Source: Anaerolineaceae bacterium
Lineage (GTDB): Bacteria > Chloroflexota > Anaerolineae > Aggregatilineales > Phototrophicaceae
DNA: 64,000 nucleotides
Assembly: GCA_007693385.1 (NCBI GenBank)
Contig: REDR01000131.1
Location: 124,001 to 188,000 of the forward strand
Direction of reading: 5' to 3'
The notes below the pieces were generated by a model. It made no database searches. It was not told where the DNA came from and saw nothing but the letters and a program-made list of their open reading frames with translations. The position numbers were made by a program, and so were the translations under genes. The stretch's first letter is position 1. Each line of letters starts with the position of its first letter. Below are positions 33,002 through 64,000 of this stretch, piece after piece.

Positions 33002-33673
33002 ATGATTTCTGAGCAGGAACAAACGGACGAATTATTGCTACAGGTTGACCCCGTACCCGGTTCGATCAATCTGTACACCTTTCTAGCGTTCATCGCGGGG
33101 ACAATCGGCGGCTATCTATTCACCGCTTCGGTTTTCGGGCTGGGGCTGTGTAGCGTGCTGGCGGTTTTCATCGGCTTGATCTTCGGCGCGGGCGTGTCGT
33201 ATGTCGCGGAGCGCGTGTTGCGGGCGATTATCGTCTCTAATCGCTTCATCCGCATCGCCTCTGACCGCATCTCGTTTATATTCGGCGGGCGCGAGGTGCG
33301 CCACATTGACCCGCGTGAGGATGTCAACGTGACCGCGTGGCACTTCGCCACCAAGCGCCGTTCGCGCGTGCCGAAGGGCTGGCACGTCGTCGCGCTGGGA
33401 CTCGAGCAGGACGAGATTTTCCTGCCGGTTTATGCGCTGGTCTCGCCGGAAGATTTCGAGGAGATGCAGACGGCGGACTTATACCGTGAACTGACCGGAT
33501 CGCGCAAGGATTACAAGGTCGATCAAGACGTGCGTCTCGCCGGAGAGCAACGGCGCATCCTGATGAACGAAACCGCCCGCAGTATCGACGGCGTAGAGAT
33601 GCGCCTCCACGATATGGAGCATTTAATCGCCCATCTACGCCGACGCTTTCCGGGATGGATGCCGCGCTCATGA
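33002..33673 (+). CDS. Uncharacterised membrane protein with two N-terminal spans
   Basis: 223-residue protein that I do not recognise. Two hydrophobic segments (about residues 20-40 and 43-65, AFIAGTIGGYLFTASVFGLG and VLAVFIGLIFGAGVSYVAER) form a hairpin in the membrane. About 150 mainly polar residues follow, with strands such as RFIRIASDRISFIFGGREVR, resembling a small beta domain. The C-terminus is helical with RLHDMEHLIAHLRRRFPGW, possibly coiled coil. It begins 1 base after the methyltransferase stop and ends in an ATGA overlap with the next gene, so it is in the middle of a three-gene unit. Confidence 0.72.
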   Translation: MISEQEQTDELLLQVDPVPGSINLYTFLAFIAGTIGGYLFTASVFGLGLCSVLAVFIGLIFGAGVSYVAERVLRAIIVSNRFIRIASDRISFIFGGREVRHIDPREDVNVTAWHFATKRRSRVPKGWHVVALGLEQDEIFLPVYALVSPEDFEEMQTADLYRELTGSRKDYKVDQDVRLAGEQRRILMNETARSIDGVEMRLHDMEHLIAHLRRRFPGWMPRS

Positions 33674-44835: not shown

Positions 44836-46320
44836 TCAGTCTGAAGGTTGCGGGATGCTGGACATCACCTCACCGAAAATCATCTCGCGTTCGCCGCGCC
44901 GGTCAACCTCATACACGCGGATCGCGCCTTCCGGCTGTACCAGCATCCACACCGCGCCGCCGACGACGCACCCCTCCGCGCCGCTTTCGCACTCGGCGGC
45001 GGGTAAATCCAGCGCGTAGCGGCCATCCGTCGGGCGGATGATGCGCGTCTCGCCACTCTGATGCACCAGATACGCTTTATCGCCCGTCGCGCTGATGCTC
45101 AGCGTGGCCGCTTGCTCGGTGCGTGCCCACGCGATGACCGTCTGCCGTCCGTTGTGGTGGCGGGCGCGGACGACGTTGGCGCGTTCGTTGCGGCTGATCT
45201 CCGCGTCGGCCACATCATGCAAATGCGCGATGACCGTCTGCCACGCGACAAACGCCGGGCGCGTCTCGCGGGTGGCGGGGTTCAAGATGCCGAACGATTC
45301 CGCGCCTTCCGGCAAGAGCTGGTCGTATAGCTTATAAACCGCGATGCGCTCCACACCGGCGGCCAGCGCTTGCGCGGCGGCCTGCACCACATACGCGGCT
45401 TGCTGTGCCAGCGTGATCTGGAATTGCGGGCGTTCCACCAGCCAATCGGGATCACGGTTGGGGCTGGCGTTGGTCTCCACGATCCAGATTTGCTTATCTT
45501 CAAAGCCGTGTTGATCCAGCAAGCGACGGTACACGCTCACGATGTCGTAGACGCTATCCGTGCGGAAATAGATATGCAGGCTCAGCGCGTCGAAGTAACC
45601 GTCATATTCGGCGGCGTCGGGGTCGGCGGCGATGCGTTCCAGCAGGCGATCCGTGTACAGGCGCTCGCCACTGTTGACATCATGCCAGTACGTTGTGCCG
45701 GCCAGGTGGATGCGGGCGGCGGGGTTGCCTTCGCGGGCGGCAATCGTCCCCACCTTGACCATCATGAAATAGTCCTCTAGCGTGCCGTCGAATTCAAAGC
45801 CGTATGTGCCGAACTGAATATCCGGCTCGTTGAGGATGATGAAGCGCGTCACGCCACGCGGCGCATAATAGGCCGCCGTTTGCCGCATGAAATTCGCCCA
45901 CAGGTTATCGGGATCATCAACCGGCAGGTACAGGCCACGCGGCACGCCCGCCCCGACGATGCCATCCGTCGCCCATTCCGGCACATTCTTGACCACCGCC
46001 ACGATCTCGCGCCCGCAGGCGGCGGCATTCGTCAGCCATTCATCCGGGATGTTGAGGAAGCCGACGAACTCATCCGGGCCGGTGGGTTGGTGCGCCGCCC
46101 AATCGAATATCAGGCGCTCCCAACCGACGCCCAGATCGCATGTCATCTCCGGAAACCACATGCCTTCCACCACGCCGAAGCGATTCGCCGCCGGTGATGG
46201 CTGTTGGCCGTCGTCGTCTTCCGCCGCCGTGCTGATCGTCACCGCGATCAACCAGCACAGCAGGAGCAAAAAGAGGCGAATATGTCCGCCATTTCGGGCT
46301 GTTCGTGTCATGTTAATCAT
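44836..46320 (-). CDS. Secreted glycoside hydrolase-like protein, coupled to recJ
   Basis: 494-residue exported protein with a signal peptide (about 1-33, LFLLLLCWLIAVTIST) and a TIM-barrel hydrolase-like domain (about 48-370). The likely acid/base is Glu165 in IILNEPDIQFGTYG and the nucleophile Glu282 in IWIVETNASPN. A C-terminal beta domain (about 385-490) follows, as in many clan A glycosidases. It resembles the protein at 42132 in layout, but the sequences differ enough that I cannot say they are close paralogues. Its ATG lies within the recJ reading frame, 8 bases before that gene ends, so a secreted protein is coupled to a DNA repair gene. Confidence 0.78.
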   Translation of the reverse strand: MINMTRTARNGGHIRLFLLLLCWLIAVTISTAAEDDDGQQPSPAANRFGVVEGMWFPEMTCDLGVGWERLIFDWAAHQPTGPDEFVGFLNIPDEWLTNAAACGREIVAVVKNVPEWATDGIVGAGVPRGLYLPVDDPDNLWANFMRQTAAYYAPRGVTRFIILNEPDIQFGTYGFEFDGTLEDYFMMVKVGTIAAREGNPAARIHLAGTTYWHDVNSGERLYTDRLLERIAADPDAAEYDGYFDALSLHIYFRTDSVYDIVSVYRRLLDQHGFEDKQIWIVETNASPNRDPDWLVERPQFQITLAQQAAYVVQAAAQALAAGVERIAVYKLYDQLLPEGAESFGILNPATRETRPAFVAWQTVIAHLHDVADAEISRNERANVVRARHHNGRQTVIAWARTEQAATLSISATGDKAYLVHQSGETRIIRPTDGRYALDLPAAECESGAEGCVVGGAVWMLVQPEGAIRVYEVDRRGEREMIFGEVMSSIPQPSD

Positions 46321-49782: not shown

Positions 49783-49829
49783 CTTCCGTGTATATAATTC
49801 GTTGGTTAAACGATGGTGAGTTAATCCCT

Positions 49830-50879
49830 TTGTCAAAACGTTGGCGTATCGGTTTGTTGGGTCTGCTGGTCAGCGCGGCGGCGGTCTATTTCATCGCGTC
49901 GCAGACGGATTTCACGTTACTGCGTGACGCGCTGGATCAAGCACGCTGGATATATGTTGTGCCCTGCGTGGTACTATTGCTCGTCGGTCTGGTCGCACGG
50001 GCGATTCGCTGGCGCTTGTTGCTCAGTGGCGACTTGCCATTGGCGCGTGCTTTCCATATCATGAACGTGGCCTATCTGGTCAATGGCGTGTTGCCGTTGC
50101 GCATCGGCGAAGTAGCGCGGGTGTATCTGGCGACGCGGGCACAGCCGCCGGTGCCGGTTCTCAAGACGACCGGCACGATCATCGTCGAGCGCCTGCTGGA
50201 TTTGCTGGCGGTGGTGATGATGATCGCGCTGGGGCTGGCCTTCGCCGATGTGCCGCCGGTTCTGCGTAGCGCTGGCCTGCTGATCGGCGGCGCGGGGTTC
50301 TTCGGCTTCGGCCTGCTGATCGTGCTGTCGCGGTGGCGCTCGCTCGCCCATCGCCTGCTGGATTTCGCGGGCACTCGCTTGCCGTTCCTGACGCGCTGGG
50401 ATGTCGCCGCATGGCTCGATCAATTTCTGGACGGCCTGCGCCCGTTGGCGCGGTGGCGGACGCTGTGGCCGGCGCTGTTCTGGACGCTGGTCAGTTGGGC
50501 GCTTTCGGTAGCGGCTGGCTACGTGCTGATGTATACATTTTTCCCGACGGCCAGCTTGACCGTGACCGGACTTTACATCGCGGCGGCGGCGCTGGCGATT
50601 GCTGTTCCGGCGACGGTGGGCAGTCTGGGCGTGTATGAAGCCTCTATATTGATCGTGTTGCAATCCACCGGATACGGCGACCCTTACGCGGTGGCGGTGG
50701 CCTTCGCGGTGACGGTGCATTTCGTCAACGTCGCCGTCCACGCGGTCACCGGCTTCATCGGCTTCATAGCGGAAGGCATCACGCTTGAGCAATTATCGGA
50801 TGGCGTGCGCGACATATCGGGCGACGGTGAACCGCCGCCTGTCGCCCGCATTGAGACATCAACAGAAACGAGTAACTGA
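49830..50879 (+). CDS. UPF0104/LPG-synthase-TM family membrane protein
   Basis: About 349 residues with eight or so membrane spans, of the lysylphosphatidylglycerol synthase transmembrane (UPF0104) family. Members are thought to flip or process lipid-linked sugars and phospholipids, and they often sit in glycan clusters. Family segments: SQTDFTLLRDALDQARWIYV, RAFHIMNVAYLVNGVLPLRI, GEVARVYLATR, TTGTIIVERLLDLLAVVMM and VPATVGSLGVYEASILIVLQ. I start at TTG 49830, with GGTGAG 9 bases upstream. A GTG at 49788 would add 14 residues but lies in the promoter. It is the first gene of the 49.8-64 kb cluster; the next gene starts directly at its stop. Confidence 0.83.
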   Translation: MSKRWRIGLLGLLVSAAAVYFIASQTDFTLLRDALDQARWIYVVPCVVLLLVGLVARAIRWRLLLSGDLPLARAFHIMNVAYLVNGVLPLRIGEVARVYLATRAQPPVPVLKTTGTIIVERLLDLLAVVMMIALGLAFADVPPVLRSAGLLIGGAGFFGFGLLIVLSRWRSLAHRLLDFAGTRLPFLTRWDVAAWLDQFLDGLRPLARWRTLWPALFWTLVSWALSVAAGYVLMYTFFPTASLTVTGLYIAAAALAIAVPATVGSLGVYEASILIVLQSTGYGDPYAVAVAFAVTVHFVNVAVHAVTGFIGFIAEGITLEQLSDGVRDISGDGEPPPVARIETSTETSN

Positions 50880-52058
50880 ATGATGCACGATCAAAACAAT
50901 CAGCCGGATTCGCTCAAAATCTTGATTTGCATACTGTATTATCTGCCGCACCGCACCGGCATGCAGTTATACATTCAGCGCATCGCCGAAGCACTGGTCG
51001 AGCGCGGGCATCAGGTCACGGTGTTGGCCGCTAAACATCGCCCCGAACTCGCCGAGCGCGAGACGATCAACGGCGTGGACGTGGTGCGCGTGTGGGCACC
51101 GCCATTCCCGATCAGTCGCGGGATGATTATGCCGCTTTATCCGTATGTGGCGTATCAACTGATTCAGTCGCACGATGTCGTCAGCATCCATTCACCGATG
51201 CCGGAGGCGGCGCTGGTGCATTATCTGGCGCGGCTGGCCGGAAAGGTGGTCATCCCGACGCATCACGGCGATTTGCTCCTGCCGGATGGCTTGCTCAACC
51301 GCGTGATACAGGGCGGCATGTTCTGGATGTACAAGACGATGGCGAAGGCCGCGCCGCGCATCGTCGCCTATACCGAAGATTACGCCGATAATTCGTACTA
51401 CCTGCAACCGTTCCGCGATAAAGTTCAGGTCATCCACCCGCCGATCACCATGCCCGCGCCTGATCTTGAAAACGCGCAGAAGCTCCGCGCCGAATGGTCG
51501 CACGATGGCGGGCCGGTCATCGGCTATGCCGGACGCTTCGTGCAGGAAAAGCGCCCCGATCTGCTGATTAAATCGCTCGATGTCATCAACCGCACGTATC
51601 CATCGGCGCGGATCGTGTTCGCCGGACAGTACGACATCCCGTATGAGAACACATGGGAGCTTTACCGCCCCGTCGTCTCAGCGTATAGCGATCAACTGAT
51701 CTTTCTCGGCTTGATTGACGATATGCAGTTCATGGCCGACTTCTTCGCGGCGTGCGATGTGCTGGCGCTGACCAGCGATAGCGAATGTTTCGCGCTGGTG
51801 CAGGTGGAAGCCATGTTGTGCGGCACGCCGGTTGTGATGACCGATACCCCGGGCGGGCGTGTGCCGGTGCAGAAAACCGGCATGGGCGCTCTGGCGCGTC
51901 CGGGCGATTATCTGCACATGGGACAGACGATCGTCGATGTGCTGGATGATCCGGCGGCCTATGCGCGGGATGTCGAAGCGGTTCGCGCTGTATTCTCTTT
52001 CGAGCGCACCGTCGATCAATACGAATCGCTATTTCGGGAGTATGCGCGGCGTGGTTGA
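50880..52058 (+). CDS. GT4-family glycosyltransferase
   Basis: 392-residue cytoplasmic glycosyltransferase with two Rossmann-like halves, working at the membrane to add a sugar from a nucleotide donor. The N-terminal half has YLPHRTGMQLYIQRIAEALV and VSIHSPMPEAALVHYLARL; the C-terminal half has VIGYAGRFVQEKRPDLLIKS and ECFALVQVEAMLCGTPVVMT. The latter carries the E-x7-E motif of GT-B retaining enzymes. Its ATG overlaps the stop of the preceding membrane protein, and its stop overlaps the methyltransferase, so three genes are coupled. Sugar and acceptor unknown. Confidence 0.93.
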   Translation: MMHDQNNQPDSLKILICILYYLPHRTGMQLYIQRIAEALVERGHQVTVLAAKHRPELAERETINGVDVVRVWAPPFPISRGMIMPLYPYVAYQLIQSHDVVSIHSPMPEAALVHYLARLAGKVVIPTHHGDLLLPDGLLNRVIQGGMFWMYKTMAKAAPRIVAYTEDYADNSYYLQPFRDKVQVIHPPITMPAPDLENAQKLRAEWSHDGGPVIGYAGRFVQEKRPDLLIKSLDVINRTYPSARIVFAGQYDIPYENTWELYRPVVSAYSDQLIFLGLIDDMQFMADFFAACDVLALTSDSECFALVQVEAMLCGTPVVMTDTPGGRVPVQKTGMGALARPGDYLHMGQTIVDVLDDPAAYARDVEAVRAVFSFERTVDQYESLFREYARRG

Positions 52059-52923
52059 TGGCGAAGTGCTGGATCACATGACGCGCAATGAGGCGGACAT
52101 GGCCTTTAAGCGCCGCGTGCGGACGATCTTCGAATGGATTGACCCGCAAGACGACGACTTCATTCTGGATATTCCGTGCGGACGCGGCTTTTATCTGAAT
52201 ATGTTGCGCTATGTCAGCCAATGCCGTCTGGTCGGCGCTGATCTGGACTCGGATGTTATCCGCAAGGCGCAGGCCAACGTCGGCCATCTGCCGGACTTGC
52301 AACTGCATCATGCCAGCGTTTACGACTTGCCGTATCCTGACGGGACGTTTGACGCGGTGATCCTGTCCGAAGTGCTGGAACATCTGGAAGATGATGTCGC
52401 CGCGCTCAAGCAAGTCTGGCGCGTGTTGAAGCCGGGCGGCGTGGTGGCGATCACCGTGCCGAATGCGAACTATCCGTTCCTGTGGGACCCGATCAACTGG
52501 ACGCTAGAACACGGCTTCAACCGTAGAATCCGCAACGGCTTACTGGCTGGCATCTGGGCGAACCATGTGCGGCTGTATCAACGTGACGCGCTGTATATGG
52601 CGGTGTTAGATGCCGGTTTCATCGTGGAGGAAGAACGCGCCTTCACGCATTGGAGTTTCCCATTCATTCACAATCTGGTGTACGGCGTCGGCAAGACGCT
52701 ATTAGAGGCGGGCGCATTGCCGGATTCGATGCACAAAGCCGCAGACCGCATCCAGTTTGACGCGCCGGACGACACCAGCCGGTTCAACCCGATACGCGCC
52801 GGTCTGCGCGTTTTCAACTGGGTGGATCAATTCAACCGCATGGATGAACCGCCCGGACGCTCAACTGTCAATCTGTGTATCAAAGGACGAAAACCACATG
52901 GGACTGACTCCGCCGCCGGATGA
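52051..52923 (+). CDS. Class I SAM-dependent methyltransferase
   Basis: About 290 residues. Motif I is ILDIPCGRGFYLNML, followed by LVGADLDSDVIRKAQANVG and the typical VILSEVLEHLEDDVAALKQV and LKPGGVVAITVPNANYPFLW. This is the ubiE-like/glycan-associated group. The start is uncertain: GTG 52051 lies 10 bases after GGGAG, while ATG 52042 is too close to it. Either way the gene begins inside the end of the glycosyltransferase gene. The partners suggest it methylates a sugar, a lipid carrier or a polyprenol-type intermediate in the same pathway. That is inferred from context only. Confidence 0.86.
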   Translation: MVDGEVLDHMTRNEADMAFKRRVRTIFEWIDPQDDDFILDIPCGRGFYLNMLRYVSQCRLVGADLDSDVIRKAQANVGHLPDLQLHHASVYDLPYPDGTFDAVILSEVLEHLEDDVAALKQVWRVLKPGGVVAITVPNANYPFLWDPINWTLEHGFNRRIRNGLLAGIWANHVRLYQRDALYMAVLDAGFIVEEERAFTHWSFPFIHNLVYGVGKTLLEAGALPDSMHKAADRIQFDAPDDTSRFNPIRAGLRVFNWVDQFNRMDEPPGRSTVNLCIKGRKPHGTDSAAG

Positions 52924-55576
52924 AAACCCATCGCCGCGCCCGATAGACGACATGACGCTGGCGGAAATCACCGCGCAATTCTTCCGCGCCCCGCGCCGCA
53001 CCATACAGGCATTGCGCGGCGCGTCGCTGGTGGATGACGAGACGCCCGCCGTGCCACACGACCACCAACCGGCGGACTCCGCGCCGGATCAACGCGCCGC
53101 ATTCGCCCTGTCGCTGGTCATGGGACTGGCTTTTGCCGGTGCGCTGGCTTCGGGCTTCGCGCTGGTGTGGCGTGGTGTGCTGGGCGGTGATGTGCTATCT
53201 GCGCTGTTGTGGGGATCGGTTGCGGCGAGCGTGGCGAGCGTCGCGCTGTACTGGCTGAAATCATCGTGTGGCGCGACGGGTGACTTCCGCGCCCGCTTCG
53301 CGTATACGCTACCGTTTGCCCCGCGCCAATGGCTCAAGCTGGCGCTGTGGGGCGCGGCGGTCTGGTTGGGCGTGGTAGCCGGTTACACATTCTTAGAAGG
53401 CCAGCCGCGCACCGAAGACGCGCAACTGGCCGCCGGTTTGCCGTATCTGCTGGCCGCGTTCTCGCTGTGGCTATTCGCCGCGATCTTCGCGGGCGATGCG
53501 GTCTGGTCGTCTACGCCGGTTGACCGGACGTTTCCGCAGTGGCATTGGCGACTGTCACGCATCGGGCGCGTGCATCCGGTGCGCGTATTCGCCATCATCT
53601 TGACGCCGGTATTGATGGTCGTGGTGTGGAATCAAACCGCGTTTAATCAGTTCCGCCCCGCCGGTTTCTGGGCGTGGGTGCTGAGTATCGTCTGTATATT
53701 GGTCGCGCTCGCCCCGTCGAGTTGGTCGCCGTTGGTGCTGGGGCGGCGTCTGCTGGCGCTGTGGCCTGCGGATGGCTCGCCGCGTCTGTGCCTGCGTTTT
53801 AGCTGGAAAACGACGATCTTCGTCGTGATCTTGCTGGTCGGTATCGTCTTCCGCCTGCATGACTTCGGCCAGATGCCGCCACAGATGACCAGCGACCACA
53901 AAGAGAAAATACTCGACGCGCAACGTGTTCTCGACGGATCGCGGGATGTGTTCTTCATGAACAACGGCGGGCGCGAAGGCTTCCAGATGTACGCGATGGC
54001 GCTATTCTCGCAACTGCCCGGACAGGGTATGACGCATCATTCGCTGATGCTGTTGGCCGTCATCGAGAGCATCATCACCCTGCCGATTGTGTTCTGGCTG
54101 GGGCGGCAGGTCATGGGACGCGATCAACGCGAAGCGGGCGACATACTCGGCCTGATCTTGATGGCGTTGCTGGCGGTCAGCTACTGGCATCTGGCGATCT
54201 CGCGGCTAGCGTTGCGGATCGTACTCACGCCGTTGGTCGGCGCGTTGCTACTCGGCTTCTTGATCCGCGCCATGCGCCACAATCGCCGCGCTGACTTCAT
54301 CGCCGCCGGTCTGGTGCTGGGCTTCGGCCTGTACACCTATCAGGCGGTGCGGATGATGCCGGTCATGGTGCTGGCGGCGGTCGGTATCGCTATTCTGTGG
54401 CGCTGGCGTGACCTGCGGGCGATCACGCGCTACGTCGTGCATCTGGCGGCGCTGGTCGCCGTCTCGCTGGTCATCTTCATGCCGCTCCTGCGCTTCAGTA
54501 CCGATTATTTCGACTCCTTCTGGATGCGGAGCGCGGGGCGCGTCTTCGGCGATGACGTGATACAGGAGCGCGGCGACGATGGCGAGATTATCTTGCGCGA
54601 TGCCAACATCGAAGACCGCTTCACCGCGTTGATCGACAATCTGCCGGAACTGGGCAACAACATCCGCAACGCGCTATTGATGTTCCACTGGCGCGGCGAT
54701 GAAGCGTGGATCAATGGCGTGCCATTTCATCCGCAACTCGATCCGGTGGCCGGTGCGTTGCTTCTGCTCGGTCTGGCGGCGTGCGCGGTGGCACTGTTCC
54801 GCCTGCGTGATCCGGTGTATTTGCTATTGCCGTTAGCGCTGTTCATCATGCTGTTGCCGTCGGCGCTGTCCATCGCCATGACCAACGAGAACCCCAGCGC
54901 GACGCGCACCAGTGGCGCTATTCCGCCGACATTCGTCATCATGTCTCTGCCGTTGCTAGGGCTGGTGATGACGCTCAAGCGCCTGTTGACGCGGCGGGTG
55001 GCGCTCAGTATTGGCGGCGTGGTGGTGGCACTGCTGGTCTATCTGTCGCTAGGCTTCAACTGGACGCTGTATTATGATGACTACCGCCAGACCTACCGCT
55101 ATACCACATGGCCTTATCGCATTCCGGCGGAGATATTGCGCGGCTTCCACATGAGCGACGGCCACTATGCCAACGCCTACATGATCGGCTATACGCTGTG
55201 GTGGGATTATCGCATCATCGGCATTGAAGCCGGTGCGCTGGACTGGCCGAACGGCATCGTCGGCATCGAGAATCTGCCGCGCTGGATGAGCGATCAACAG
55301 TATTGCGGCGCGGGCGATTACGCGCTCCACACCGGACGCGATTTCATGGTGTTCTATCACCGCGACGACGACGACACCGCCGCGCAACTGCGCGAATGGT
55401 TCCCGGATGGGTACGCCAAGCGCATCATCACGTACAACAGCCCGACATTTGACTTTTATATCTTCCGCGTGCCAGCGATGGGCGATAGGCGCTTCTATGA
55501 ATTCGCCCTGCGCCACGTCGAGAATCCATCCTGTCCACCTATCCCGCCGCCACCTGTTGAGGATCAAAGCGGCTAA
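52898..55576 (+). CDS. GT39-like (PMT/ArnT fold) membrane glycosyltransferase
   Basis: 892-residue integral membrane protein with a cytoplasmic N-terminus (about 1-65), some twelve spans and a large C-terminal extracytoplasmic domain (from about residue 710). The early loop carries FRLHDFGQMPPQMTSDHKEK, the acidic segment of GT-C enzymes. GLYTYQAVRMMPVMVLAAVG and SWYWHLAISRL-like runs (AVSYWHLAISRLALRIVLTP) fit PMT relatives. Such enzymes take sugar from a polyprenyl carrier on the outer face. ATG 52898 follows AAAGGA and overlaps the previous gene by 26 bases. It is followed by the DUF2298 genes, so it probably works with them. Acceptor unknown. Confidence 0.82.
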   Translation: MGLTPPPDENPSPRPIDDMTLAEITAQFFRAPRRTIQALRGASLVDDETPAVPHDHQPADSAPDQRAAFALSLVMGLAFAGALASGFALVWRGVLGGDVLSALLWGSVAASVASVALYWLKSSCGATGDFRARFAYTLPFAPRQWLKLALWGAAVWLGVVAGYTFLEGQPRTEDAQLAAGLPYLLAAFSLWLFAAIFAGDAVWSSTPVDRTFPQWHWRLSRIGRVHPVRVFAIILTPVLMVVVWNQTAFNQFRPAGFWAWVLSIVCILVALAPSSWSPLVLGRRLLALWPADGSPRLCLRFSWKTTIFVVILLVGIVFRLHDFGQMPPQMTSDHKEKILDAQRVLDGSRDVFFMNNGGREGFQMYAMALFSQLPGQGMTHHSLMLLAVIESIITLPIVFWLGRQVMGRDQREAGDILGLILMALLAVSYWHLAISRLALRIVLTPLVGALLLGFLIRAMRHNRRADFIAAGLVLGFGLYTYQAVRMMPVMVLAAVGIAILWRWRDLRAITRYVVHLAALVAVSLVIFMPLLRFSTDYFDSFWMRSAGRVFGDDVIQERGDDGEIILRDANIEDRFTALIDNLPELGNNIRNALLMFHWRGDEAWINGVPFHPQLDPVAGALLLLGLAACAVALFRLRDPVYLLLPLALFIMLLPSALSIAMTNENPSATRTSGAIPPTFVIMSLPLLGLVMTLKRLLTRRVALSIGGVVVALLVYLSLGFNWTLYYDDYRQTYRYTTWPYRIPAEILRGFHMSDGHYANAYMIGYTLWWDYRIIGIEAGALDWPNGIVGIENLPRWMSDQQYCGAGDYALHTGRDFMVFYHRDDDDTAAQLREWFPDGYAKRIITYNSPTFDFYIFRVPAMGDRRFYEFALRHVENPSCPPIPPPPVEDQSG

Positions 55577-55616
55577 ACGTGTATAAGACACGATGTAGCC
55601 AACAGGAGCACGACTG

Positions 55617-58600
55617 ATGTTAGATGCGAACCAACCGTTACCGGCTCGCCCATCCATCTTGAATAACCTGACGGCGGCGAATGCGCTCGTCGTGGTCTTG
55701 CTGGGCATGGCGATCCTGTTCGGCGCGTCATTCCGCTTCATGGCGAACAACTGGGATGACTTCGTGCGCTTTCATCCCGATGAGCGCTACTTGACCGGAC
55801 AAATCGGCCCGAGTCTGGGGCGTGATCTGGCGATCTGTCATGATGCGTCGCCCGCCTGTATGGAACGCATGGCGCGGGTGAGTGACTGTCAGGCACGGTA
55901 TCCGGAAAGCAACGGGCGCGGCGGCTTCTTCGACGCGAATTGTTCCGCCTACAATCCCGAAAATGTGGCGTTAACGCAGTACGTCTACGGCACATTGCCG
56001 CTATTCATCGCCCGCTTGACGGCGGAAGCGATGGTCAGCCAGACCGATGATTCTTTCTGGCTGAGTTATAGCGGCTTCGTGTTCGTGTGGCGGGCGCTCT
56101 CCGCGCTGGCCGATACGCTGGTGATCGTGCTGGTATTTCTCATCGGGCTTCGACTGCATGGCAAATGGATAGGCGTGACGGCGGCCATCCTGTACGCTTT
56201 TGCGGTGTTCCCGATTCAGCAGGCGCACTTCGGCACCGCCGACGCCATCACCAATTTATTCGTGGCGCTGGCCGTCTATTTTCTGGTGCGCGTGGGGGAT
56301 AGCGATAACCTGTGGAATTACGCGCTGTTCGGCGTGGCGGTGGGGGCGGCAGTCGCCAGCCGGATTAACGTCGCGCCGTTGGCTTTTGTGCTGGCTGTGC
56401 CCATCTTGATTCGCATCGCCCCCGCGTTTGATCCGCACCTGCCATCCGCCGAGCGTTCGCGCCACATCATCCGGCCATTGACCGGCGGCATCGTCGCCGC
56501 GTTGTTGGCGATGATCGCCTTTCGCATCGGTAATCCGTATGCGTTCGTCGGGCCGGGATTCTTCGGGCTGGGGTTCAATGAGCGTTTCTTTCAGGCGCTC
56601 GATCAGGCGCAATTCAGCGTTAGCGGCGCGATGGACTGGGCACCGAACTGGCAATGGGTCAACCGCACGCCGTATCTTTTCTCCCTGCAAAATATGATCC
56701 TGTGGGGGATGGGCGTGGCGTTCGGCGTGACCGCGTGGCTGGCGTGCCTGTGGGCGGCATGGCGCATCGTGCGCGGCAAGGTCGGCGCGTTGAGTCAGGC
56801 CGGTCTGGTGGCGTGGGTACTCGGCTATTTCGCGTTCGCCGGTGGCCTGTGGGTGATGTCCATGCGCTACTATCTGCCGCTTTATCCGGTGCTGGCGGTG
56901 CTGGCCGCGTGGTTGCTGGTCAGCGCAATGCGTGGCGCATGGACGGAGCGCGGCTGGGTGGCGCGGGCGGCGGCGTCATCGGCGCTGGTCGGCGTGGTCG
57001 GCTTCACCATGCTATGGGGCGTGATGTTCACCAACATCTACCGCAATCAAGCGACATTCGTGCAGGCCGGTCAATACACATGGGAGCGCGTGCCGGGCGA
57101 TTTCTACATGCAGATTGACGGCGCGGATGAGACGACGCCGTTAGTGAACGTCGGCTTGCGGCACGGCGGCGGCGGGAATGTGCCGTTAGAAGATCGCCTC
57201 AAGCATGAGGCTACACGCCTGATGCCCGATGTCGCCGTCAGTCAGGAGTTCCGCGTCGCCGTCGGCGGCACGGTCACGGAAGTTCATGCGCATCGGCTGG
57301 CCGCCGTCCGCATGGATACCGCATCAGCCGATGATGGCTTCAGCCAGCGCTTGACGCACGACGCCGAGCCGCGAGCCGTGCGGGTGACGATTGCCGATCA
57401 GCACGGCAACACATTAGCGACCGGCCAGATCGACGGCATGTTCCCCGCCGAAACGCACATGCTCGGCGAGCGCTACACCATCCCGCTTGATCGTCCGGTG
57501 AATTTCGAGACAGGCGGGCAATATCTTTTCACGGTGCAGGCGTCGGGCGGCATGATGATCGCATCCGGCGCGGTGATGGCGTCCGAATTGCCATGGGATG
57601 AGGCCGTCCCGCCTAAAGTGTGCTACCCGTTGCCGGATGGCATGACATTGGCCGATAATCCGCCGCCCGGCGTGTACAGCTTCGATGAGTGCAACGCGCT
57701 CCGCACGCCCGCACCATGGGAAGGGCTGGTGCAAATCTTCAATCTGGACATCGCCGCCGGTGATAACGTCATCCAGCGTGACCGCCTCATCACCATCCTT
57801 GACCAGACCGATTACATCTGGGTGAATACCAACCGCCGCTATGATTCGCAATCGCGCATCCCGCTACGCTGGCCGATGACCAATGCGTATTACGACGCGC
57901 TATTCAGTGGCGAACTCGGCTTCGAGCTAGAGCGCGTCTTTGAGGAGACGTTCCAGCTTGGCGGCTTGCGCGTCAGCAGTCAACATCTGCCATTTTATGA
58001 TTCTCCGGCGTGGCTGAATGAATTCGAGCCGGAAGAAGCGTTCCATGTATACGATCATCCGGTGGTGATGTTGTTCCGCAAGACGGACGACTACTCGCCG
58101 GAGAATACGCGCCTGATCCTGCGCGGCGTCCCGTTGACGCGCACCGATCAAGTATTCGAGAGTTACAACGACCCGACTATCGCCAACATCTTGCCGCTTT
58201 CATCGCTGGAAGCCGACGAAGCGCCGACGCATTTGATGTTCACGCCGGAGATGCGCGATCTGCAACGTTCCGGCGGCACATGGGCGGAGCGCTTTAACGT
58301 CAATAGTCCGGTCAATCAGAATCAAGTGCTGGCCGTCGTGGTCTGGTGGGCGGCGATCATCGTGCTCGGTCTGGCGGTGTGGCCGTTGCTGTTCGTCGCT
58401 TTCCCCGCGCTGGCTGATCGCGGCTATGGCTTCGCCAAGATCATCGGCATGACGTTAATCGCGTGGCTGTTGTGGACGCTGGGCACGATGCGTATTCCAC
58501 TATGGAACCAGATGGGCGTGGCGCTGGCTCTGCTGGCGCTGGCCGCGTTGAGTGGCGTGGTGGCGTGGCGTCAGCGCGATAAACTGCTGGCGTATGTCGC

Positions 58601-61001
58601 GCTTCATTGGCGGCTATTGCTGACCATTGAACTGTTATCGCTGGTGCTATTCGTCGCGTTCATCGGCGTGCGCCTGACCAACCCTGACCTGTGGCACAAT
58701 ATCTACGGCGGCGAAAAGCCGATGGATTTCGCCTACTTCAACGGCGTCTTGCGTAGCACCATCTTCCCGGCCATCGACCCATGGTTCGCTGATGGTTACA
58801 TCAACTACTATTATTTCGGCTTCGTGATCGTCAGCGTGCCCACGCTGTTGACCGGCATCGTGCCATCCGTCGCCTATAACCTGATCTTGCCGACGCTGTT
58901 CTCCGTCACCGGCTTGGGCGCGTTCAGCTTGGCGTATAGCGTCGTCGCTTCGTGGCGTACATCGTCCGGCCAGCCGGCTGATCGTCCGCGTCGTCCGCTT
59001 GGTAATGCGTATGTGGCCGGCGTGATGGCGCTACTGCTGGCGGTGGTGCTGGGCAATCTGGACACGGCGCGGGTTTTCGCTAATGGCGTGGCGCAAATCG
59101 GCGGTTACGAGCAACCGACTGGACTCATCGCCTATTATGATCGTCAGTTGCGCGATGAGTTCATCGACACGACGGGCGCACCCCCGACGGAGGAGATGAC
59201 GGAAGTCATCCGCGCTGAAGCGCGTGACCGCGCCGCCAACGCCAACATCTTTGACCGTGTGGGCTACGAAGTGAGCAACGTGACCGGACTCGTTAGCGGC
59301 TTTGTGCGCGGTAGCCAGCGCATGTTATTCCAGAATGTGCCGTTGAACATCAACGCTAGCCGCTGGTTCTGGGCGCCGACGCGCACCATCGCCGAGATAC
59401 CGGATTCCGGCGACGGCGCGATCAACGAAATGCCATATTTCACGTTCTTATACGGCGACATGCACCCGCACATGATGTCTATGCCGTTGATGTTGTTCGC
59501 GCTGGCTTTCGTGTTCCATGAAGTGCTGATCGCCGGACGTGATCGGCGGCGGCGTGCCGCGTGGTGGGCGCTGTTTCTCGGCGCGTTGGTCATCGGGCTG
59601 TTTCAGGCGGTCAACACATGGGAGACGCCGACGTTCATGATTCTCGGCGTGCTGGGGCTGGGCTATGCGTGGTGGCTAAGTTGGGGACGCCTGACGCGAG
59701 ACTCGTTGATTGCGATGGTCGGGCGCGTCGGCGGGTTCATCGTGCTGGCGTGGCTGGTCGCTCTGCCGTTTACGTGGTGGTTCAATAGCGGGCTGACCGA
59801 GTTCAAAATATGGGACGGCAACAAGACGCCGCTATGGGCTTACATCCAGATTCACGGCTTCTTCCTGTTCCTGATCGCCTCTCTGCTCCTGTGGGAGTCG
59901 GGGCGCTGGATGGCGGCGGTGCGCCTGCGTGATCTGCGCGGCAAGATGGGGCTGGTCATGCTGATTGCTGGCGGCTTCTTCGTCGTCTGTCTGGTCGCGC
60001 TGATCCTAGCGATGATCGAATATCAGGTCGCGCTGATCGTCCTGCCCGCCGTCGCGTTGATCGCGCTCCTGTTCTTCCGTCCCGGCCAATCGCGGGCGAT
60101 GCAATATGTACTGGTCATCGCCGGTCTGGGGCTGGCGATTACGATGGGCACGGAAGTCATCACCCTGCGCTTCGACAACGGGCGGCAGAACAGCATCTTC
60201 AAGTTCTACATTCAGGTGTGGTTGATGTTCAGCGTGGTGGGCGGCGTGGTCGTCGCGTGGATGTTGCGCCATCTCAGCGCGTGGCGGGCATGGCTGGCGA
60301 CGGGCTGGCTGGTCGTCTTCGTGACGCTATTTTTCGTGGCGGCGATGTATCCTATCACCGCGACGCAAGGCAAAGCCGCCTTCCGTTTTTCGCATGATGT
60401 CCCGTTGACTCTGGATGGCATGGAATACATGCTTTATGCGCGTCACTGGGAGGACGGCCTGAGCGATCCGGTGGAACTGGAAAGCGACTACCGCGTGATA
60501 CGCTGGCTACAGGACAACGTGCGCGGCACACCGGTCATCATGGAGGCGCTAAGCGGGCGCGTCATCTACCAGTGGGGCAACCGCATCGCTATCAATACCG
60601 GCTTGCCGTCGGTGGTCGGCTGGGACTATCATCAGCGCCAGCAACGCTCGCTGGAGCATCTGCCCGCGCTGGTGGCAAATCGGCGGGCGAACGTTAATGC
60701 GTTCTACACCACCGCCGATATGGATGATGCGGTCAAAATCCTGCATCATTACGATGTCGGCTATGTGATCCTCGCCGATTACGAGCGCAGTCGCTATGAT
60801 CTGTTCGCGGGTGCGGATGGCCTGATGAACGGCGCTTTGCAAAAGTTCGACGACATGACCGCTAGCGGCATTTTACGGATTGTGTATCAAGAAGGCGATG
60901 CGACCATCTACGAAGTACAGCGCGACGCGCTCGACGCGGCTTTTCTAGCGCGTCTGCTGGCTGATGAAGCGGACGAAGCGCTCTGGACGGAGATAGAATG
61001 A
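55617..61001 (+). CDS. Fusion of a GT39-like membrane domain and a DUF2298 (YYY) domain
   Basis: 1794-residue membrane protein, unusually long. The N-terminal half (about 15-450) is a GT-C type domain with DDFVRFHPDERYLTG in its first loop and about ten spans. A soluble extracytoplasmic region (about 480-890) contains beta-rich segments. The C-terminal half (about 905-1794) is a DUF2298 domain: FADGYINYYYFGFVIV (about 1060), FLYGDMHPHMMSMPLML (about 1278) and NSIFKFYIQVWLMFSVVGG (about 1523). It has its own RBS, AGGAG (55604-55608), and overlaps the next gene (ATGA). Role: probably lipid-linked sugar transfer to surface molecules, inferred from family and neighbours. Very few parts are soluble and cytoplasmic. 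Confidence 0.86.
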   Translation: MLDANQPLPARPSILNNLTAANALVVVLLGMAILFGASFRFMANNWDDFVRFHPDERYLTGQIGPSLGRDLAICHDASPACMERMARVSDCQARYPESNGRGGFFDANCSAYNPENVALTQYVYGTLPLFIARLTAEAMVSQTDDSFWLSYSGFVFVWRALSALADTLVIVLVFLIGLRLHGKWIGVTAAILYAFAVFPIQQAHFGTADAITNLFVALAVYFLVRVGDSDNLWNYALFGVAVGAAVASRINVAPLAFVLAVPILIRIAPAFDPHLPSAERSRHIIRPLTGGIVAALLAMIAFRIGNPYAFVGPGFFGLGFNERFFQALDQAQFSVSGAMDWAPNWQWVNRTPYLFSLQNMILWGMGVAFGVTAWLACLWAAWRIVRGKVGALSQAGLVAWVLGYFAFAGGLWVMSMRYYLPLYPVLAVLAAWLLVSAMRGAWTERGWVARAAASSALVGVVGFTMLWGVMFTNIYRNQATFVQAGQYTWERVPGDFYMQIDGADETTPLVNVGLRHGGGGNVPLEDRLKHEATRLMPDVAVSQEFRVAVGGTVTEVHAHRLAAVRMDTASADDGFSQRLTHDAEPRAVRVTIADQHGNTLATGQIDGMFPAETHMLGERYTIPLDRPVNFETGGQYLFTVQASGGMMIASGAVMASELPWDEAVPPKVCYPLPDGMTLADNPPPGVYSFDECNALRTPAPWEGLVQIFNLDIAAGDNVIQRDRLITILDQTDYIWVNTNRRYDSQSRIPLRWPMTNAYYDALFSGELGFELERVFEETFQLGGLRVSSQHLPFYDSPAWLNEFEPEEAFHVYDHPVVMLFRKTDDYSPENTRLILRGVPLTRTDQVFESYNDPTIANILPLSSLEADEAPTHLMFTPEMRDLQRSGGTWAERFNVNSPVNQNQVLAVVVWWAAIIVLGLAVWPLLFVAFPALADRGYGFAKIIGMTLIAWLLWTLGTMRIPLWNQMGVALALLALAALSGVVAWRQRDKLLAYVALHWRLLLTIELLSLVLFVAFIGVRLTNPDLWHNIYGGEKPMDFAYFNGVLRSTIFPAIDPWFADGYINYYYFGFVIVSVPTLLTGIVPSVAYNLILPTLFSVTGLGAFSLAYSVVASWRTSSGQPADRPRRPLGNAYVAGVMALLLAVVLGNLDTARVFANGVAQIGGYEQPTGLIAYYDRQLRDEFIDTTGAPPTEEMTEVIRAEARDRAANANIFDRVGYEVSNVTGLVSGFVRGSQRMLFQNVPLNINASRWFWAPTRTIAEIPDSGDGAINEMPYFTFLYGDMHPHMMSMPLMLFALAFVFHEVLIAGRDRRRRAAWWALFLGALVIGLFQAVNTWETPTFMILGVLGLGYAWWLSWGRLTRDSLIAMVGRVGGFIVLAWLVALPFTWWFNSGLTEFKIWDGNKTPLWAYIQIHGFFLFLIASLLLWESGRWMAAVRLRDLRGKMGLVMLIAGGFFVVCLVALILAMIEYQVALIVLPAVALIALLFFRPGQSRAMQYVLVIAGLGLAITMGTEVITLRFDNGRQNSIFKFYIQVWLMFSVVGGVVVAWMLRHLSAWRAWLATGWLVVFVTLFFVAAMYPITATQGKAAFRFSHDVPLTLDGMEYMLYARHWEDGLSDPVELESDYRVIRWLQDNVRGTPVIMEALSGRVIYQWGNRIAINTGLPSVVGWDYHQRQQRSLEHLPALVANRRANVNAFYTTADMDDAVKILHHYDVGYVILADYERSRYDLFAGADGLMNGALQKFDDMTASGILRIVYQEGDATIYEVQRDALDAAFLARLLADEADEALWTEIE

Positions 61002-63658
61002 GCATGATTTTCGATTGGCTTTTGCGTGAAGGCTGGATCATTGCGGGGTGGTGGCTGGTCATCAGCGCGATGGGCTTCACCGTGTTTCCGGCGCTGGTTC
61101 GGCTGTTGCCCGCCCTGACCGATAAGGGCTACACGCTGGCGCGTCCGGCGGGATTGCTATTTGTGGCGCTGGTCTTCTGGTTGCTGGCCGTGCTAGGCTT
61201 CATCAACAACACATCCGGCGGGATTCTGCTGGCGTGGGTGATCGTCTTGCTCGCCAGCGCCGCGCTGTATAGTCGCCTCTCCGCGCCGTTTGATCTGCGC
61301 GATTGGTGGCGCGATAATCGCTTGCTCATCATCACCACCGAGATTCTATTCATCGTCTTGCTGGTCGGGTTCGCCGCGTTCCGCGCCCATCAAAACGGCT
61401 TCGTCCACACCGAGCAACCGATGGATTTAGCGTTCATGAGCGCTATCCAGCACAGCGAAACATTCCCGCCCAATGATCCATGGCTGGCCGGATACGCCAT
61501 CAGCTACTACTATTTCGGCTATCTGATGGCGGCTATGAATGCGACGCTGGTCGGCGTGCCGTCCACGATTGGCTATAACATGCATCTGGCGCTATTGTTC
61601 GCGCTGGTCGGCACGGCGAGCGTCGGGCTGGTCTATAATCTGGTGCGCGGACGCGCCAGAAACGCGCCATCCACCGCGCCGCGCCGACGGGTGGCGGTGG
61701 GCTTCGGCTTGCTGGGGATGGCCTTCTTACTGCTGATGAGCAACTTTCACATGATCTTCGTTGAGTTGCCGTATCGCAATGCGCTATTCAGCGACGGTTA
61801 CTATCAATTCTGGGATACGAAAAACCGCACCGCCGTTCCTGATGAACCATCCGACATTACGCGGGCGTTCTGGTGGTGGTTCGACCATTCGCGCACCGTC
61901 ACCGAGCGCACCGTGCCCATGCGGATTCCGGCGGGTGTCACCTATCAACAGGACGGGCAGGCCGTCACCGCGACGGAGGCGATCACCACGCCGACGCGCC
62001 AGACGCATGAGGTGATCGACGAATTCCCCGCGTTTAGCTTCTTACTAGGCGACAGTCACCCGCATGTGATGGCGTTGCCGTTTGTGTTGCTGGCGCTGGG
62101 GCTGGCGTTGAACGTCCTGTTATCAGATCGCCCGCCGGACGCCCTGCGGATCGCGTTTTATGGCGTTTGCATCGGGGCGCTGATCTTCCTCAATACGTGG
62201 GATGCGCCGGTCTATGTGGTGGTGATCGTCGGCGCGGAGGCGGTGCGGCGTGTCTTGCGCGGCTCTGCGTCGGGGCGGGGCGCATCGCTACGGCGGGACG
62301 ACATCCTGTTTTTATTCGGTATGGGCGCGGCTCTGTTGGCGGTGATGTTGCTGGTGTATATGCCGTTTCTGGTCGGCTTCACATCACAGTTAGGCGGCGT
62401 GCTGGCGAACGTGGCGCATCCGACGCGCCCGCAACAGCTATTCTTGATGTTCGGCCCGTTCGTGATCTTGCTGGCGGTCTTTCTCGCGGTGGAGTGGTGG
62501 CGCGGACGACGGGCGATGAATTGGGCGCTGGCCGTGCCCGCCGTCACCGGCATCATCGGCGTGTTGTTTTTCCTTCTGCTGATCTTAATGGCGCTCGGCA
62601 TGGCCGACCCGACCTATCAGAATATGATCCGCACCGTCTTCCGGCAAGAAGTGGACGGGATGCGTACCGCGTGGGATGTGCTGACTCCGGCGCTGATCGC
62701 CCGCAGGCTTTCGGCGATTGTTACGCTGATCGTCATTGTGGCGGTCTTGCTGATCGGTCTGGCGCGTTTGTTCCCGCCACATCACGGCATAGAACCGACG
62801 GCGGGCGATCAACCTCAGCCGATTTACACGCCATCTAGCGGCTTCGCGCTCCTGTTGATCGTGTGTGGCGTCGGACTAATCTTGATACCGGAGTTCGTCT
62901 ATCTGCGCGATAACTTCCAGACGCGCATGAACACGATATTCAAATTCTACTATCAGGCGTGGGCGTTGTTCAGCATTTCGGCGGCTTATGGTGTATATAG
63001 CATCGTGCTAGATGAATCACGCCCGCGCCCGCGTTCTGCCCTCCGAATCGCATACGGCGCGTTGACGGTCTTGATACTGGGCGCAGGGATGGTGTATTTT
63101 GTACTGGGCACGTATTCGCGGGCATTGCACGAGACCGGCATCGCCAACAATCCCGACCACGCCCTGACGCTGGACGGCGGCGCGGGGTTCGTCGCGCCGG
63201 AGGACTATCAGGCGATTATGTGTCTGCGTGAGGTGGTCGGGCGGCGGCAGGTGGTCGTCGCGGAGGCCAACCCGCAGGGCGGGCGCGTGAACTACAATCC
63301 GGCACACGGGCGCGTCGGCTCGTTGATCGGGACGCCGATCATTCTAGGCTGGCCCGGCCATCAATCGCAGTGGCGCGGGACGAGTTACCGCGAAGTGCTG
63401 GGCACACGTCCGGCGGATTTAGACCTGCTGTTCACGGCGGAGCGTCTGGATATGGCACAGCCGGTCATTGAGCGTTACGGCATTGATTACATCCTTTACG
63501 GCAACACCGAACGCCTGCATTATGGAAGCGCGGGCGAGTCTAAGTTTCTGGATCATTTCGAGATCGTCTGCGAAGCGCAGGGCGCTTCAGGGACGGCGCG
63601 GATTTTCCGTGTCAGCCGTCCGGCGGGCGAATTCGCAACGTTAAGCGATGGACGATAG
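60998..63658 (+). CDS. DUF2298 (YYY) membrane protein
   Basis: 886-residue integral membrane protein with the DUF2298/Chlor_Arch_YYY signature. The same three motifs as in the C-terminal half of the preceding protein are present: LAGYAISYYYFGYLMAAMNA (about 168), FLLGDSHPHVMALPFVLLAL (about 348) and MNTIFKFYYQAWALFSISAA (about 644). It lacks the N-terminal GT39-like half. A soluble segment of about 90 residues (240-330) lies between the first and second motifs. The C-terminal domain (about 720-886) is outside and ends in VERYGIDYILYGN-type segments (VIERYGIDYILYGNTERLHY). Its ATG overlaps the stop of the fusion gene, so the two are made together and may interact. Confidence 0.9.
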   Translation: MSMIFDWLLREGWIIAGWWLVISAMGFTVFPALVRLLPALTDKGYTLARPAGLLFVALVFWLLAVLGFINNTSGGILLAWVIVLLASAALYSRLSAPFDLRDWWRDNRLLIITTEILFIVLLVGFAAFRAHQNGFVHTEQPMDLAFMSAIQHSETFPPNDPWLAGYAISYYYFGYLMAAMNATLVGVPSTIGYNMHLALLFALVGTASVGLVYNLVRGRARNAPSTAPRRRVAVGFGLLGMAFLLLMSNFHMIFVELPYRNALFSDGYYQFWDTKNRTAVPDEPSDITRAFWWWFDHSRTVTERTVPMRIPAGVTYQQDGQAVTATEAITTPTRQTHEVIDEFPAFSFLLGDSHPHVMALPFVLLALGLALNVLLSDRPPDALRIAFYGVCIGALIFLNTWDAPVYVVVIVGAEAVRRVLRGSASGRGASLRRDDILFLFGMGAALLAVMLLVYMPFLVGFTSQLGGVLANVAHPTRPQQLFLMFGPFVILLAVFLAVEWWRGRRAMNWALAVPAVTGIIGVLFFLLLILMALGMADPTYQNMIRTVFRQEVDGMRTAWDVLTPALIARRLSAIVTLIVIVAVLLIGLARLFPPHHGIEPTAGDQPQPIYTPSSGFALLLIVCGVGLILIPEFVYLRDNFQTRMNTIFKFYYQAWALFSISAAYGVYSIVLDESRPRPRSALRIAYGALTVLILGAGMVYFVLGTYSRALHETGIANNPDHALTLDGGAGFVAPEDYQAIMCLREVVGRRQVVVAEANPQGGRVNYNPAHGRVGSLIGTPIILGWPGHQSQWRGTSYREVLGTRPADLDLLFTAERLDMAQPVIERYGIDYILYGNTERLHYGSAGESKFLDHFEIVCEAQGASGTARIFRVSRPAGEFATLSDGR

Positions 63659-63667
63659 ACCATAGAT

Positions 63668-64000
63668 ATGACGACATTAACGGCAGACGGACGGGCAGAG
63701 ATCGGTACGGCGCGGGCGCGGGTGAGCGTCGAAGCGCTGTGTATCATGGCGTTATTCGGCTTTGTGCTGGTGACGCGCCTCGCGGCGCTGGGCGCGGTGA
63801 CGATGACCCCGGCGGAGATTCCGCCCGCGCTGGCCGCGTGGCGGGCGTTCATGCCCGCGCTGGCCTCCGGTGAGGTGTTCGTGACCGATAGCGCCATGCT
63901 GTTCTGGGCACAGGGCACCGCCATGATGCTATGGGGCGGCTCGGAATGGGCGGCGCGACTATTCACCGCGCTGGCGGGTGTGGCGCTGGTGCTTACGCCG
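63668..64000 (+). CDS. Membrane glycosyltransferase-like protein (GT39/Agl23-like), 3' end outside window
   Basis: The frame is open from ATG 63668 to the last base (111 codons), so the gene continues beyond the window. The visible part has a hydrophobic segment (about 22-42, VEALCIMALFGFVLVTRLAA), then ALGAVTMTPAEIPPALAAWR, VTDSAMLFWAQGTAMMLWGG and EWAARLFTALAGVALVLTP. This pattern (RL-x-x-LG, an acidic loop, W-A-R-L before the next span) resembles the start of GT39-like and Agl23-type proteins that neighbour DUF2298 genes. No RBS is obvious, and it starts 9 bases after the previous stop. Only the N-terminus is seen, so the family is tentative. Confidence 0.6.
   Translation, partial: MTTLTADGRAEIGTARARVSVEALCIMALFGFVLVTRLAALGAVTMTPAEIPPALAAWRAFMPALASGEVFVTDSAMLFWAQGTAMMLWGGSEWAARLFTALAGVALVLTP

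Follow-up and report, generated by a model that had tools for sequence, protein, structure and literature searches.

Seven genes near the end of a 64,000-nucleotide stretch of DNA from an Anaerolineaceae bacterium (Chloroflexota; contig REDR01000131.1 of GenBank assembly GCA_007693385.1, positions 124,001 to 188,000; hereafter the window) form what is, on balance, likely to be a conserved Chloroflexota machine for an envelope glycan, in which GT-C transferases would work at the outer face of the membrane on polyprenyl-linked sugars. Its centre is formed by two proteins with a DUF2298 domain (PF10060; TIGR03662, Chlor_Arch_YYY) accompanied by Agl23-type proteins (TIGR03663). This pair of families is already named in NCBIfam, and the new point is the GT-C fold predicted for DUF2298. 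In the scheme that we favour, the GT4 enzyme and the methyltransferase of the row would make or cap a lipid-linked sugar inside the cell, and the UPF0104 protein, an Agl23-type protein or both would carry it to the outer face. Sugars would then be moved there from polyprenyl-phosphate donors onto a growing glycan, a surface protein or a polymer by several GT-C transferases: the GT39-like protein, a fusion protein through its GT39 half, the two DUF2298 units and the two Agl23 proteins. We infer the outer-face activity, the polyprenyl donors and the order of every step; that the row builds or attaches sugars outside the cell is probable. The envelope glycans of Chloroflexota are, to our knowledge, little explored.

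Predicted fold and invariant residues of DUF2298

The strongest evidence for this reading is structural. The model of the stand-alone DUF2298 protein is confident (predicted local distance difference test score, pLDDT, 91.7; predicted template modelling score, pTM, 0.94), and Foldseek matches it at E < 0.001 to AglB, DPY19, STT3 and AftA. In a second structure comparison, the first 40 of the 50 ranks listed are all taken by GT-C enzymes or by C-terminal domains of AglB (Z scores 7.4-13.9). Among the whole-model matches, STT3 and DPY19 are tied (Stt3 Z 13.9, root-mean-square deviation, rmsd, 8.1 over 477; DPY19 Z 12.9-13.3), and AftA (Z 12.2, 5.5 Å over 501 residues), ALG12 (12.2), Pmt4 (12.2), ArnT (11.0-11.4), AftB, AftD and EmbB are found as well. 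Three extra N-terminal helices precede the matched core, and most matches begin near residue 99. Because the Z values of a helical protein would be weak on their own, the C-terminal globular domain of the fusion protein was folded alone (pLDDT 92.1). All of ranks 1-20 are then STT3/AglB or DPY19 (Z 8.3-11.2), headed by 3vu0 (Z 11.2, rmsd 3.1 over 127) and including DPY19 at Z 9.7-10.7; AftA and AftD (7.3-7.6) and one more AglB (6.9) come lower, and the first unrelated fold stands at 4.7. This gap between STT3/AglB/DPY19 and unrelated folds in the modelled domain is our strongest result, and the models assign DUF2298 to the GT-C fold with a C-terminal domain of the STT3/AglB/DPY19 type. The predicted fold of that domain fits an oligosaccharyltransferase without being specific to one, DPY19 being tied.

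On these models, DUF2298 may work like an oligosaccharyltransferase, or like DPY19 or AftA. Neither DUF2298 protein of the window matches PF02516 at E 0.01, and the WWDYG motif is lacking, WWDxG being found in 1 of 249 DUF2298 frames (locus L082) and in none from the window; the family is therefore not filed as an oligosaccharyltransferase. It is a bolder and rather doubtful proposal that DUF2298 is an unrecognised, diverged oligosaccharyltransferase family without WWDYG, standing in for STT3 in the majority of Chloroflexota and in certain archaea, whose two paralogs, split before the classes diverged, would glycosylate surface proteins. One such protein might be the archaellin of Litorilinea aerophila, in which densities at T66 and T145 have been interpreted as O-glycosylation, in passages of a paper that suggest repurposed bacterial machinery and name no enzyme (PMC12488501); the link from these O-glycans to the present cluster is our conjecture.

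The AftA match opens a rival to which we give a substantial probability, somewhat short of even: the GT-C row would build a cell-wall or S-layer-linked polysaccharide sugar by sugar, in the manner of AftA/AftB/AftD/Emb, with no protein glycosylation. The long AftA alignment and the matches to AftB, AftD and EmbB speak for it, as do the presence of several unlike GT-Cs in one operon and of the families in every sampled genome of the class, which suits a housekeeping wall function. The C-terminal domain of DUF2298, however, is nearer to STT3/AglB/DPY19 than to AftA/AftD, and DUF2298 is unmatched in all listed genomes of some Chloroflexota families (e.g., f13 and f15), so that not every envelope in the phylum requires it. 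Decoration of a membrane lipid or glycolipid by ArnT-like enzymes is, in our view, very unlikely. ArnT is among the whole-model matches, and PF03706, the family of the first gene in the row, takes its name from the membrane region of a lipid-modifying enzyme, but the ArnT match is weaker than those to STT3 and DPY19, and no ArnT is among the C-terminal domain matches listed, an absence that excludes nothing.

The alignment of both paralogs adds residues to the envelope-glycan reading. In the numbering of the 886-residue stand-alone protein, E139, P157, Y170, Y171, G174, R299, E342, D352, H354, H356, N399, R643, N645, K649, W655, H788 and R804 are invariant in 73 rows. E139 sits just past helix 100-131 of the model, presumably in an outer loop. 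A C-terminal GWxxHxxQxR stretch is present in 63 of the 73 rows, mostly as HExQWR in the stand-alone proteins and as HQxQQR in the fusions. E139 and the DxHxH motif would be candidate residues; we do not equate them with the metal ligands of AglB. The neighbouring GT-C modules have conserved acids of their own, the HPDE of the fusion's GT39 half and one Asp of the GT39-like protein (D329 counted from 52910; 99% of 75 rows). DUF2298 is a large membrane family, and a confident GT-C model supplies targets for mutagenesis and points to a class of assay.

The two layouts correspond to two lineages. In a tree of 146 DUF2298 domains (named loci subsampled, labels given by position in the frame), a single branch with full support (100 in the SH-aLRT, a Shimodaira-Hasegawa-like approximate likelihood ratio test) splits 70 domains, nearly all stand-alone, from 76, nearly all fusion-type; four rows lie on the other side from their label (L049_F_647, L070_S_50, L152_XS_3 and L169_XS_85). 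A tree of 67 partly randomly drawn rows, rooted with a haloarchaeal outgroup, gives support of 92 for the stand-alone clade and 99 for the fusion-type clade, with one Chloroflexota copy and one Pseudobutyrivibrio copy outside both. An old duplication within the phylum would be the simplest reading of these clades.

Conservation and co-occurrence in Chloroflexota

The two families travel together. Of 201 sampled Chloroflexota genomes, 142 carry TIGR03662 (130 above its cut-off of 300.25 bits), as do 71/71 genomes of the window's class (69 above); TIGR03663 likewise occurs in 71/71 (70 above its cut-off of 126.25 bits). Both families are strong in 126 of the 201 genomes, TIGR03662 alone in 4, TIGR03663 alone in 1 and neither in 70 (Fisher p 5e-48, kinship ignored). 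The genes were also compared over loci that were in part hand-picked, mostly from long contigs, the named loci being the best 80 of 561. Among the named relatives, most are Anaerolineae metagenome-assembled genomes (MAGs), one of which belongs to Aggregatilineales, and one is the isolate Ornatilinea apprima. The locus sets overlap (L063 and L170 have identical domains, and the contigs of L065/L138 are equal in length). In 140 locus strings, of which many are truncated at contig ends and some recur in more than one set, the fusion gene is followed by the stand-alone DUF2298 gene in 97 and then by the short Agl23-like gene in 84; the GT39-like gene precedes this trio in 57, and the GT4 and methyltransferase genes are present as well in 23. 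Among stand-alone DUF2298 genes with enough flanking sequence, 26/32 in the class, 10/16 in other classes and 56/64 in the named loci have another DUF2298 gene within 1.5 kb on their upstream side, and 29/34, 9/15 and 56/69, respectively, have an Agl23-like gene within 1.5 kb downstream. Both genomes of the same family that were examined keep the full order of ten genes, including a sigma/anti-sigma pair downstream of the row.

A sequence-only reading of the window had proposed conservation of gene order as a check on its idea of an envelope glycan assembly cluster of archaeal-like character. The order recurs in relatives and, with the co-occurrence above, therefore refutes a chance adjacency of unrelated glycosylation genes, which we reject and to which we attach next to no probability, even though two genomes that consist of a single contig each (G003 and G198) retain the parts unlinked, at separate places, so that linkage is not obligatory. 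What stands of that idea is a conserved surface-glycan gene set with a core shared with archaea; what does not is that the transferase missing from the set has to be AglB or PglB, given that both DUF2298 proteins are themselves modelled as GT-C transferases. The view that DUF2298 is otherwise typical of archaea was too narrow as well, given its strong presence in Chloroflexota and a copy on a Pseudobutyrivibrio plasmid.

That copy, a lone gene on plasmid pNP95 of P. xylanivorans (L184), lies outside both Chloroflexota and archaea. Its neighbours are polysaccharide genes (GT2, aminotransferase, O-antigen ligase and epimerase), which we count in favour of a glycan role. A whole cluster is also present on a contig labelled as a Bacteroidetes MAG (L109, JAPUDW010000005.1), which groups inside Anaerolineae relatives in the tree and is probably mis-binned or mislabelled. 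The archaeal comparison consists of one haloarchaeal plasmid copy, a DUF2298 frame of ~770 codons that spans the record start of Halarchaeum plasmid pCBA1220-01 (L185/L186) and is missing from the annotated rows in the stretches that were read.

Canonical STT3 is rare in the sampled genomes. Clear matches (at least 68 bits) occur in 4/201 (G154, G162, G170 and G074), none in the window's class, and all others are partial and reach at most 32.3 bits. At three of the four clear loci, frames contain WWDYG or WWDFG. Three of the four genomes are without a strong DUF2298, but four genomes are too small a sample to claim a replacement. A canonical STT3 in the source genome was considered and rejected, the only candidate being one marginal, partial 25.5-bit match without WWDxG.

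Layout of the row and the Agl23 pair

The window corresponds to G000:C5:124001-188000 in our numbering, and its contig ends 7.2 kb further on, at 195238. The sequence-only reading held up in its description of seven same-strand genes of the families named: all are open, on the + strand and matched by profiles (Table 1; Pfam cut-off for DUF2298, 27.8 bits). It had placed the first start at 49830, which is corrected here to a GTG at 49788, and had described mostly overlapping ends, which overstates the case. With ATG starts assumed at 52078 and 52898, two of the six junctions are overlaps (of 26 and 4 bases), three are gaps of 9-40 bases and at the remaining one the genes abut; the tight spacing is operon-like. 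The seventh gene crosses the window end. It had been called Agl23-like and is related to that family, but it fails the TIGR03663 cut-off, and the gene that passes lies further downstream. Reading on past the window, as had been suggested, uncovered in the remaining 7.2 kb genes for an extracytoplasmic function (ECF) sigma factor and an anti-sigma-like protein and then this second Agl23 gene, which is the longer one and has NHL repeats; of the oligosaccharyltransferase also sought, a genome-wide search gave only the marginal STT3 match described above.

Table 1. Coordinates of the gene row, of its candidate motifs and domains, and of the genes beyond the window
Feature	Position	Strand	Basis
UPF0104 flippase-like membrane protein, PF03706/TIGR00374, 363 aa	49788..50879	+	Pfam 150 bits; TIGR00374 55.8 bits vs cut-off 43.2; GTG start
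GT4 glycosyltransferase, 392 aa	50880..52058	+	Glycos_transf_1 + Glyco_transf_4
Class I S-adenosylmethionine (SAM) methyltransferase	52078..52923	+	Methyltransf_11 78 bits; ATG start; longer frame from 51859 possible
GT39-like multi-spanning protein	52898..55576	+	PMT_2 23.3 bits, weak, below cut-off; no NCBIfam family
1794-aa fusion: GT39/PMT-like N-terminal half + DUF2298 (TIGR03662)	55617..61001	+	PMT_2 39.4 bits at 157-264; DUF2298 353.1 bits at 947-1538; TIGR03662 461.7 bits
Fusion H53-P54-D55-E56, PMT-type acidic pair, presumed first outer loop	55773..55784	+	95-99% conserved, 108 rows
Fusion C-terminal globular domain, 198 aa	60405..60998	+	Folded alone, pLDDT 92.1; STT3/AglB/DPY19 matches Z 8.3-11.2
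Stand-alone DUF2298 (TIGR03662), 886 aa	60998..63658	+	DUF2298 337.6 bits; TIGR03662 447.1 bits; AlphaFold model pLDDT 91.7, pTM 0.94
Stand-alone DUF2298 E139, candidate catalytic acid (putative role), after first core helix	61412..61414	+	Invariant, 73/73 rows
Stand-alone DUF2298 D352-x-H354-x-H356, candidate metal-site motif (putative role)	62051..62065	+	Invariant, 73/73 rows; D.H.H in 246/249 DUF2298 frames
Stand-alone DUF2298 R643-x-N645-x-x-F648-K649-x5-W655	62924..62962	+	Invariant, 73/73 rows
Stand-alone DUF2298 C-terminal globular domain, residues 723-886	63164..63655	+	3vu0 (AglB C-terminal domain) Z 9.6, rmsd 2.6 over 116 residues, within whole-protein model
Short Agl23-like paralog, 654 aa	63668..64000, on to 65632 in window numbering (L004:668-2632)	+	PMT_2 36.7 bits; TIGR03663 55.8 bits, below cut-off 126.25
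ECF sigma gene	L004:2667-3275		Beyond window
Anti-sigma-like gene	L004:3280-3825		Beyond window
Long TIGR03663 gene with NHL repeat tail	L004:3659-8236, open at contig end		TIGR03663 201.7 bits; beyond window

The two Agl23 genes differ in the DE and HGP of the N-terminal part, which we take to be residues characteristic of the Agl23 family. The long gene of the source genome has both, and over the loci long Agl23 proteins keep HGP in 58/61 and DE in 59/61. Short ones keep HGP in 7/105 and DE in 21/105, usually with a single Glu kept in the rows printed, so the short protein may have become an altered partner or one without catalytic activity. The sigma/anti-sigma pair set between the two genes (L004:2667-3825) is a candidate regulator of the cluster, and an ECF sigma gene stands behind the short Agl23 gene in 23/59 loci with two Agl23 genes. 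In L126 and L106 the long gene with its NHL repeats is split into several shorter frames, either broken or mis-sequenced.

Agl23 also brings in a rival that we hold to be unlikely, in which DUF2298 and Agl23-type proteins are flippases or scramblases of lipid-linked sugars on a GT-C scaffold and not transferases. Its footing is the Agl23 of Haloarcula hispanica, which, according to passages of PMC11182771, translocated lipid-linked Man5GlcNAc2 in liposomes and suppressed the loss of rft1 in yeast; the tight co-occurrence of DUF2298 with TIGR03663 is in keeping with it. On the other side stand the invariant acid, His and Arg residues in both DUF2298 paralogs, a C-terminal domain that is otherwise seen in transferases, and four or more adjacent GT-C modules that a single flippase family leaves unexplained. 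By analogy with the Haloarcula precedent, a flippase role would nonetheless be real for part of the gene set.

Several points weigh against an outer-face transferase machine. First, some GT-C-like proteins do act as flippases, as the same passages report for Agl23 (PMC11182771), and a fold by itself gives no substrate. Second, a PDB profile search with DUF2298 matched no solved GT-C and gave spurious matches, mostly to membrane helices, and hhalign of DUF2298 against four Chloroflexota STT3 sequences gave a probability of 20 and E 0.0011 for a C-terminal segment alone, which we do not count as proof. Third, DE and HGP are missing from most of the short Agl23-like proteins, so not every member of the cluster need be an enzyme. 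Fourth, the cluster is without a lipid-carrier loading gene and without a sugar-nucleotide gene, and no glycan-assembly cluster is evident beside the Halarchaeum copy of DUF2298 in the stretches that were read.

The absence from the window of a Wzy polymerase or O-antigen ligase, also claimed from the sequence, was confirmed among 30 window proteins scanned with Pfam, some small open reading frames being unscanned; three Wzy_C matches lie elsewhere in the genome, outside the window (on G000:C81 and at C5:50356-50736). Elsewhere in the window, positions 44836-46320 (- strand) encode a 494-residue protein with a signal-like start and a glycoside-hydrolase-like sequence (LNEPD) that has no Pfam match at E 0.01, and two large + strand frames at 17650-19332 and 33655-35220 (560 and 521 residues) have no Pfam family at E 0.001.

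Comparison with known systems

The closest named counterpart is the pair TIGR03662 and TIGR03663 ("flippase activity-associated protein Agl23"), to which both DUF2298 proteins and the long Agl23 belong by cut-off. TIGR03662 takes in both the fusion and the stand-alone layout, and the family entry that is shown assigns DUF2298 no function. The cluster departs from TIGR03663 in the short paralog, which falls below the cut-off and has mostly lost DE/HGP, and adds NHL repeats and sigma/anti-sigma neighbours. Our literature search found no paper carrying either accession; a passage of PMC8756737 lists DUF2298 among the genes of a neighbourhood, as a hypothetical protein, and Agl23 is named in the reference list alone of PMC10384203 and PMC9943897 and not in the main text of PMC8993221. 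The two marker families, present in all 71 genomes sampled from the class, are candidate glycosylation machinery for the Chloroflexota archaellum.

Unlike a Wzx/Wzy capsule or O-antigen cluster, the row has no Wzy_C among the window proteins scanned. The long downstream gene resembles Haloarcula hispanica Agl23 in belonging to its NCBIfam family and in keeping DE and HGP, and differs in being bacterial and in its NHL repeat tail, flipping being reported in the passages of PMC11182771 for the archaeal protein alone. In mycobacteria, several members of the AftA/AftB/AftD/Emb group act in series outside the membrane. DUF2298 shares their GT-C fold in its model, with AftA over 501 residues, but its C-terminal domain matches AftA and AftD less well, and no arabinan is known here. 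DPY19 C-mannosyltransferase ties with STT3 as the best match, for the whole model and the C-terminal domain alike, and differs in having no sequence-level match to DUF2298. From STT3/AglB/PglB, finally, DUF2298 is set apart by the missing PF02516 match, the missing WWDYG and the three extra N-terminal helices, but its model has in common with them a GT-C core followed by a C-terminal globular domain, and its sequence an Asp-x-His motif, which appears as DHH in the four Chloroflexota STT3 proteins.

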